64,000 nt of DNA from Asaccharospora irregularis DSM 2635 (lineage in GTDB: Bacteria > Bacillota > Clostridia > Peptostreptococcales > Peptostreptococcaceae): positions 1 to 64,000 of the forward strand of contig NZ_FQWX01000006.1 of assembly GCF_900129815.1 (NCBI RefSeq), read 5' to 3'. Both the position numbers and the translations under genes were made by a program. Of the stretch, positions 5,010-46,347 are shown piece by piece (position 1 is the stretch's first letter; every line of letters begins with the position of its first letter). Below the pieces are notes generated by a model. That model saw only the letters and a program-made list of their open reading frames with translations, did no database searches and had not been told where the DNA came from.

Positions 5010-5240
5010 AATTAAAATATTAAATAGACTAGAGTAGTAAAAGATTGAGTTTTACCAGAGAGCTAGTGGGTGGTGAGAACTAGCAAAATTTAACTTTGAA
5101 CTTGCTAGATTTAAATCTATTTAGCCGTAGTTGGCATAAAAACTATCTAAGAGAGCCTATTTTAGGCTAATTAGGGTGGTACCGCGAAGATTATCCTCGT
5201 CCCTAAACGTAAGTTTAGTGGGCGGGGATTTTTTAATGAA
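5010..5240 (+). promoter_or_regulatory. leucine T-box riboswitch
   Basis: tRNA-sensing leader of leuS. It has the AG-bulge/distal-loop block of stem I (AGAGAGCTAGTGGGTGGTGA), a likely specifier CTT (Leu) at 5101-5103 after TTGAA, and the T-box AGGGTGGTACCGCG at 5173-5186. The terminator uses arms 5193-5208 and 5213-5229 with a T-run. Uncharged tRNA-Leu would pair with the specifier and T-box and favour the antiterminator. A TATAAT at 4999-5004 may be its -10. The specifier assignment rests on position and on the downstream gene. Confidence 0.92.
5193..5234 (+). terminator. T-box-controlled terminator of leuS
   Basis: A 16-bp G+C-rich stem with a GTAA loop and T6 tail. Its 5' arm contains CGTCCCT, which alternatively pairs with the T-box AGGG to form the antiterminator. 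Confidence 0.9.
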
Positions 5241-26701: not shown

Positions 26702-26798
26702 GGGGGTGGATGGGTGCTGGTGTGCCCTCTAGTCTTCAAAACTAGTATGAGGGGTTAGGAGCTTCTTAGGTGGGTTCGATTCCCACGCACTCCCGCCA
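26702..26798 (+). tRNA. selC: tRNA-Sec (anticodon TCA)
   Basis: 97-nt tRNA. The acceptor is GGGGGTG/CACTCCC (one G-T wobble) with encoded GCCA end. The anticodon arm CTAGT-CTTCAAA-ACTAG has TCA at 26736-26738. There is a long variable arm (about 26746-26769) and a T arm GTGGG-TTCGATT-CCCAC. Size, long variable arm and UCA anticodon identify the UGA-decoding selenocysteine tRNA used with SelA/SelB encoded 9 kb upstream. Confidence 0.96.
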
Positions 26799-46070: not shown

Positions 46071-46111
46071 AAAAATATTACTGGGGGCTATACTCCAGTA
46101 ATATTTTTTTG
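46071..46111 (+). terminator. dnaJ terminator
   Basis: AAATATTACTGG and CCAGTAATATTT with T7 tail. Confidence 0.9.
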
Positions 46112-46173
46112 TAACCTATAACTAATCGATTATAATTAAGAAAAAGTATTTTTTTATTGATAAAATTAATCCT

Positions 46174-46261
46174 AGAGAAGGGTAGGTGAAGATATAAGTC
46201 TTACCGACATTGCAGCTTGACTGTCTGGAGGAAGACTTATATCGAACCGACCCGAAGCTCT
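46174..46261 (+). ncRNA. candidate structured RNA of unknown family
   Basis: A rod-like fold of 88 nt. From the base: AGAG/CTCT, loop AA/GAAG, GGGT/ACCC, single A/G mismatch, GGT/ACC, loop GAA/GA, then a perfect 12-bp helix GATATAAGTCTT/AAGACTTATATC (46191-46202 with 46232-46243). The tip is CC-GACA/TGTC-GG with a purine-containing loop. It is much more G+C-rich than the flanks and lies between a terminator and a separate promoter. Strand is assumed from the neighbours. Purine-rich internal loops suggest a protein- or ligand-binding RNA; no known riboswitch or SRP/6S motif was found. Confidence 0.5.
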
Positions 46262-46294
46262 GATTTAATTTACTATAAAACATAATATTACTTA

Positions 46295-46303
46295 TGATAT
46301 AAT
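46295..46303 (+). promoter_or_regulatory. extended -10 promoter of prmA
   Basis: TGATATAAT fits TGn-TATAAT, 45 nt before the prmA start and downstream of the hairpin. Confidence 0.55.
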
Positions 46304-46347
46304 AGAGGTTATGGAAAATATCAAAACCAAAGAAAGGAAGATTACAT

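Follow-up and report, generated by a model that had tools for sequence, protein, structure and literature searches.

The hairpin between dnaJ and prmA of Asaccharospora irregularis is one copy of a dispersed palindromic repeat family, probably a spreading DNA hairpin rather than a small RNA gene

The dnaJ-prmA locus

The window, which is the whole stretch of 64,000 nucleotides from Asaccharospora irregularis DSM 2635 that was analysed, contains a hairpin of 88 nt between dnaJ and prmA (Table 1). This hairpin folds as a single rod with an MFE of -38.6 kcal/mol, compared to -18.4 ± 2.9 for 200 dinucleotide shuffles, none of which equals it (z -6.9), in agreement with the one long helix and perfect 12-bp core that a sequence-only reading of this DNA had described. 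The complementary strand of the same segment also folds, more weakly (-31.9, z -5.2). The purine-rich internal loops described earlier are present, the termini read AGAG/CTCT, and the G+C content of 47% stands apart from that of the flanks (17% upstream and 21% downstream), as had been remarked. The sequence-only reading recognised no riboswitch, SRP, 6S, or ribozyme signature and proposed an Rfam search; indeed, none of the 4227 models matches the hairpin above its gathering threshold, nor at E-values up to 10. Elsewhere in the window, the Rfam scan located a selenocysteine tRNA gene (26702-26794) and a T-box leader (5015-5207).

The location of the hairpin, after the dnaJ terminator and ahead of the prmA -10, supports the earlier view that it is neither a leader of prmA nor a terminator. 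In the window copy the hairpin is followed by GATTTAATTTACTAT, which has no T-run, and the intrinsic-terminator test called no terminator there. The prmA promoter is conserved in relatives that lack the element. The dnaJ-prmA gaps of related genomes had been suggested as a place to look for conservation, and in none of 29 such loci (some of them not cut to the exact gap by our script) did the model search find a convincing element. We therefore rejected a conserved dnaJ-prmA feature, which is absent in the relatives examined. The proposal of a stand-alone small RNA at this site is not supported either, since the hairpin is a dispersed, multi-copy repeat that is missing from the gaps of the relatives.

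Table 1 Features of the dnaJ-prmA intergenic region, in window coordinates.
Feature	Position	Strand	Basis
dnaJ intrinsic terminator, distinct from the element	46074-46110	+	Inverted repeat AATATTACTGG/CCAGTAATATT followed by TTTTT; terminators at the same place in relatives
Outer 5' arm, which may repeat the prmA promoter side imperfectly and in inverted form	46129-46173	.	Extension of the inverted repeat in an anchored test (0 of 300 shuffles); alignment
Hairpin element (family member), core-sense strand	46174-46261	+	Fold z -6.9; covariance-model score 103 bits; other copies in the genome with 88% identity
Perfect 12-bp stem, 5' side GATATAAGTCTT	46191-46202	+	Fold; covarying stem
Conserved core CCGACA-TTGCAGCTTGACTGTC-TGGAGG (tandem G.A/G.A internal loop and apical hairpin)	46204-46231	+	Columns (nearly) invariant in 16 copies; sole part common to 24 copies of one relative
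Perfect 12-bp stem, 3' side AAGACTTATATC	46232-46243	+	Fold; covarying stem
Outer 3' arm, probably the native side, containing the prmA -10	46262-46306	.	Same extension test; promoter conserved in relatives without the element
prmA extended -10 TATGATATAAT	46293-46303	+	Read from sequence; same motif in G020, G017, G082, G013, and others

A repeat family of the Peptostreptococcaceae

The dnaJ-prmA hairpin is one copy of a dispersed palindromic repeat family found only in Peptostreptococcaceae. A BLAST search of the region against its own genome returned other copies that are up to 88% identical over 85-88 nt, and a covariance model built from 16 complete copies (R1) detects about 36 family members in this genome, either single or in arrays. 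Matches to R1 occur in 18 of 71 Peptostreptococcaceae genomes, with 14-27 copies each in G063 (27 copies), G020, G058, G059, and G060. A broader model (R2) matches 9 of 198 genomes of the order, every one in Peptostreptococcaceae, and no genome outside this family in a class sample of 291, with the proviso that a limited number of candidates was scored per genome in these two scans, so that weak copies may have escaped. The plasmids, phages, and viral contigs that were searched gave no family match, and carriage by a phage or plasmid was rejected on this ground. Among the open-licence papers searched, none describes the family, which is likely a new kind of genome repeat, held by one bacterial family.

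Three nearly identical units with an exact spacing of 222 bp are located before a uvrD/pcrA-like helicase gene in the A. irregularis genome (L040:6932-7463). On contig C21 of the same genome, at least 13 units surround secA2-like and cell-wall-binding, S-layer-type genes (L039:5643-10546), with an N assembly gap inside the array. Another array (L043:6509-7216) separates a T-box leader, with its terminator, from the start of valS.

Anatomy and genomic position of the copies

The core common to the copies consists of S-C-GA-CA, an apical hairpin of variable length, and UG-GA-G-S, and its short paired blocks are separated by tandem G.A mismatches. Outside of this core, pairing in the stem is kept while the letters change: 91% of the cells are in standard pairs over 64 distinct rows, 22 of the 24 stem pairs have changed on both sides, and the covariation score reaches 0.475, compared to 0.165 when shuffled and at most 0.08 when slid. 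The covariation that the sequence-only reading had proposed to look for is thus strong in the arms across copies. Purines make up 77% of the unpaired bases within the core-strand stem, and in 75 of 93 copies this strand gives a better fold than its complement.

Positions relative to genes were counted using simple ORFs as gene calls. In four relatives, a gene points at the 3' side of the core in 55 of 64 copies, typically ending a few tens of nucleotides away, and only two of these copies lack a gene end on either side. Where the context is co-directional, the core strand runs antisense to the gene it abuts in 27 cases and sense in 7. The window copy, flanked by the dnaJ terminator and the prmA promoter, differs in its setting from the copies of the relatives, and copies in its own genome are found before, after, and between genes. 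How the copies are oriented relative to the replication fork seemed suggestive on visual inspection, but was not used, as the positions of the origins were unverified and the signal is confounded with gene orientation.

Many copies in relatives directly follow a stop codon, and the palindrome is often outlined like a giant terminator with a T-run. Such an outline could come from ordinary long intrinsic terminators that share a tip by chance. Nevertheless, a distinct dnaJ terminator precedes the window copy and no T-run follows it, the core is also conserved at positions that are not terminators, and chance leaves a common core of 20-28 nt across genera unexplained; we find this possibility hardly credible.

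A structured RNA, either at the 3' end of mRNAs or stand-alone, is another way to read these copies. A protein would then bind the core, with its tandem sheared G.A pairs, and affect termination or stability. The invariant core and the strong covariation are consistent with such an RNA, as are the better folding of the core strand, the proximity of gene 3' ends in nearly all of the relatives' copies examined, and the T-runs that often end the outer arms in relatives. However, the better-folding strand is mostly antisense to the abutting co-directional gene, the copies in the own genome are scattered before, after, and between genes, and single changes that break a pair are not depleted (see below). 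In addition, G.T pairs number 73 and A.C mismatches 96 on the better-folding strand, in a test of low power in which terminator-like stems give only 48 versus 35. We consider a structured RNA quite improbable. From the earlier proposal of a stand-alone small RNA or a protein-binding element, a conserved and covarying hairpin with no Rfam relative holds, and it is possible that a protein binds the invariant core, whereas the stand-alone RNA gene is not supported.

Arms as inverted copies of local sequence

The 24 copies in G063 (genus Peptacetobacter) have little in common beyond the core, with about 0.1 bit or less per position past 20 nt, while their inverted repeats reach 60-115 nt. In about a dozen of these copies, the inverted repeat reaches the gene on the 3' side of the core and takes in 7-52 nt of its coding end; these genes include EngB/YsxC (39 nt), HprK (52 nt), RuvB (37 nt), and FeoB. 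The coding ends of EngB, HprK, and RuvB are found again, in inverted form, across the core. The end of EngB in G064 and G022 matches that of G063 and is followed by a short, ordinary terminator, with no element; the native sequence is therefore that of the gene side, and the copy is the far arm. One arm is thus an inverted copy of local sequence in G063, which is what is expected from a quasipalindrome made by template switching. Only G063 shows this reach into coding ends clearly; it is weaker in the other genomes. In G020 and G059, 20-30 nt of arm per side are common to the copies, and in the own genome the inner arms are partly common, as in an ordinary repeat.

Because the arms in G063 are private, inverted copies of local sequence, template switching in DNA explains the covariation at least in part, and the covariation is no proof of an RNA. 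Strong covariation, which is usually regarded as the best evidence for a functional RNA, here has at least in part another origin. We favour, with moderate confidence, a dispersed family of fold-back DNA hairpins in which template switching during replication would write the arms and homogenise them; the family is probably a spreading DNA hairpin rather than a small RNA gene.

The extent of 88 nt initially given for the window copy is correct for the rod itself, but the palindrome continues for about 45 nt on both sides, to approximately 46129-46306 (score 14 compared to 4.2 ± 3.4, 0 of 300 shuffles), with modest identity between the outer arms in this AT-rich sequence. As relatives have the same prmA -10, which lies within the 3' arm, we infer that the native arm is the one on the prmA side, and the 5' outer arm may therefore repeat the promoter side of prmA in inverted form. 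Inverted copying of local sequence is only suggested at this copy. In the own genome, 3 of 12 complete copies extend significantly past 88 nt (p ≤ 0.02), and the evidence for folding back is therefore mainly that of G063.

Joint evolution of the arms and turnover of sites

Between orthologous hairpins of G058 and G059, we observe 9 double changes in 423 stem pairs, all of which keep the pairing, whereas 0.4 would be expected from independent changes, a 23-fold excess. Such an excess of paired, multi-base changes between close relatives is also expected from template-switch quasipalindromes. Single changes amount to 27, compared to 25 expected from the flanks, which are about 97% identical and give a neutral divergence from a small sample (296 sites, 9 differences); 18 of these single changes break a pair. 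Selection on pairing should deplete the pair-breaking single changes, and they are not depleted; arm-to-arm copying explains both the double and the single changes.

The sites themselves turn over. At a site between convergent genes, G061 and G062 are empty and have plain hairpins. One orthologous comparison opposes one copy to three copies, and at one orthologous site the whole hairpin differs, even if the flanking genes are 97% identical. Among closely related strains, no new insertion event was seen, which we counted against the fold-back explanation.

Bacterial MITEs, such as ERIC, Correia/NEMIS, and RUP, are palindromic repeats of 100-200 bp found near gene ends, which can fold as RNA or DNA and which share terminal inverted repeats and sequence. 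A MITE-like origin would have a transposase insert the core and inner arms together, preferentially at terminators, with the differences between arms resulting from later drift with compensation. The empty sites fit this origin, the arm sequence common to copies in G020 and G059 also does, and the tandem arrays, together with the site with one versus three copies, indicate amplification. Nevertheless, the outer arms of this family, unlike those of MITEs, are copies of local sequence. The arms in G063 are private to each copy and run into coding ends, and no terminal inverted repeat is common to all copies; in G020 and G059 the arms are partly common. Moreover, G063 is rich in copies while having neither a Y1 transposase nor a reverse transcriptase. 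We regard this origin as unlikely.

Comparison with known systems and possible mode of spread

REP/REPIN and the GTAG- or CGTC-tagged palindromes (PMC3733652, PMC3116915) are similar to this family in being small, dispersed palindromes, mostly extragenic, and single or clustered, and a dedicated transposase is likewise missing from the CGTC group. REPs are 20-40 bp long, with a common stem and a GTAG/CGTC tag at the end, whereas in this family the tip alone is common and the private arms can reach about 100 nt. The text of the REP palindrome survey contains neither Firmicutes nor Clostridi- as a word. We rejected a REP/RAYT system, as the hairpin of 88 nt or more has AGAG/CTCT termini with no GTAG/CGTC end, and an intact Y1 (HUH) transposase was found neither in G000 (only a 60-aa remnant) nor in G063 (none). 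G020 has an intact Y1 transposase.

Quasipalindromes and template-switch hairpins (PMC8794818, PMC7202029) share with the family arms that are made, extended, and homogenised in one step, as well as paired, multi-base changes. Template switching creates hairpins and maintains or homogenises them, and in E. coli it was reported to be more common on the leading strand (PMC8794818, PMC7202029). Known quasipalindromes arise at chance palindromes, whereas here a conserved, repeated core is located at the apex of dozens of them. The repetitive hairpin-forming elements of sponge mitochondria (PMC2800124) are likewise structurally similar, sequence-divergent hairpins that invade intergenic regions; the present family differs by its location in a bacterial chromosome, its conserved core, and its inverted copies of gene ends.

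Among the enzymes looked for, none emerged that would mobilise the family, which is a further point against the fold-back explanation. No RVT_1 match was found in G000, G063, and G020, three of the richest genomes, and mobilisation by a resident reverse transcriptase (retron, group II intron, or DGR) was therefore rejected, although mobilisation by an enzyme since lost is possible. Loss of the palindrome nuclease was rejected as the cause of persistence: SbcD is found in G000, G063, G059, and G020, so the palindromes of the copy-rich genomes checked do not persist for lack of it.

We infer that the core is mobile and that template switching is the cause of the arms. The spreading unit would be the short core hairpin SCGACA...UGGAGS, joined in some genomes by arm sequence of up to about 30 nt, and it would settle mostly beside gene 3' ends. 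The hairpin would then provoke fold-back template switching in replication, with the nascent strand turning at the core and recopying the arm just made. An inverted copy of the neighbouring sequence would be written in this way, for instance of a terminator, of a coding end even, or, in the window copy, of the prmA promoter side. The palindrome would thereby be lengthened, and its arms would later be kept matched. As a more tentative extension, which we find possible but doubtful, the hairpin might spread by itself, the core serving as a snap-back primer and each landing writing the adjacent gene end or promoter in inverted form, which would yield private arms and propagation with no resident, dedicated transposase. 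No enzyme is visible for the core, yet its roughly 25 nt occupy tens of sites per genome, including conserved gene ends, and these provide dozens of independent sites for measuring template switching in bacteria.

Other small repeated features accompany some of the copies. One of two orthologous copies (L163 and L105) has a GCGA-rich insert of 38 nt in its apical loop, and GCGA/GACGAAGTCGC fragments are found beside another element in the flanks of L104 and L137. These GCGA-type fragments are possibly a second small repeat family. In the arrays L042:10724-11065, L043:6798-7215, and L044:6490-6711, the 5' units stop close to the core or right at it, and a full 3' arm is present in the last unit alone, with another small hairpin (GACGCAGATAA...TTATCCAGCG) ahead.
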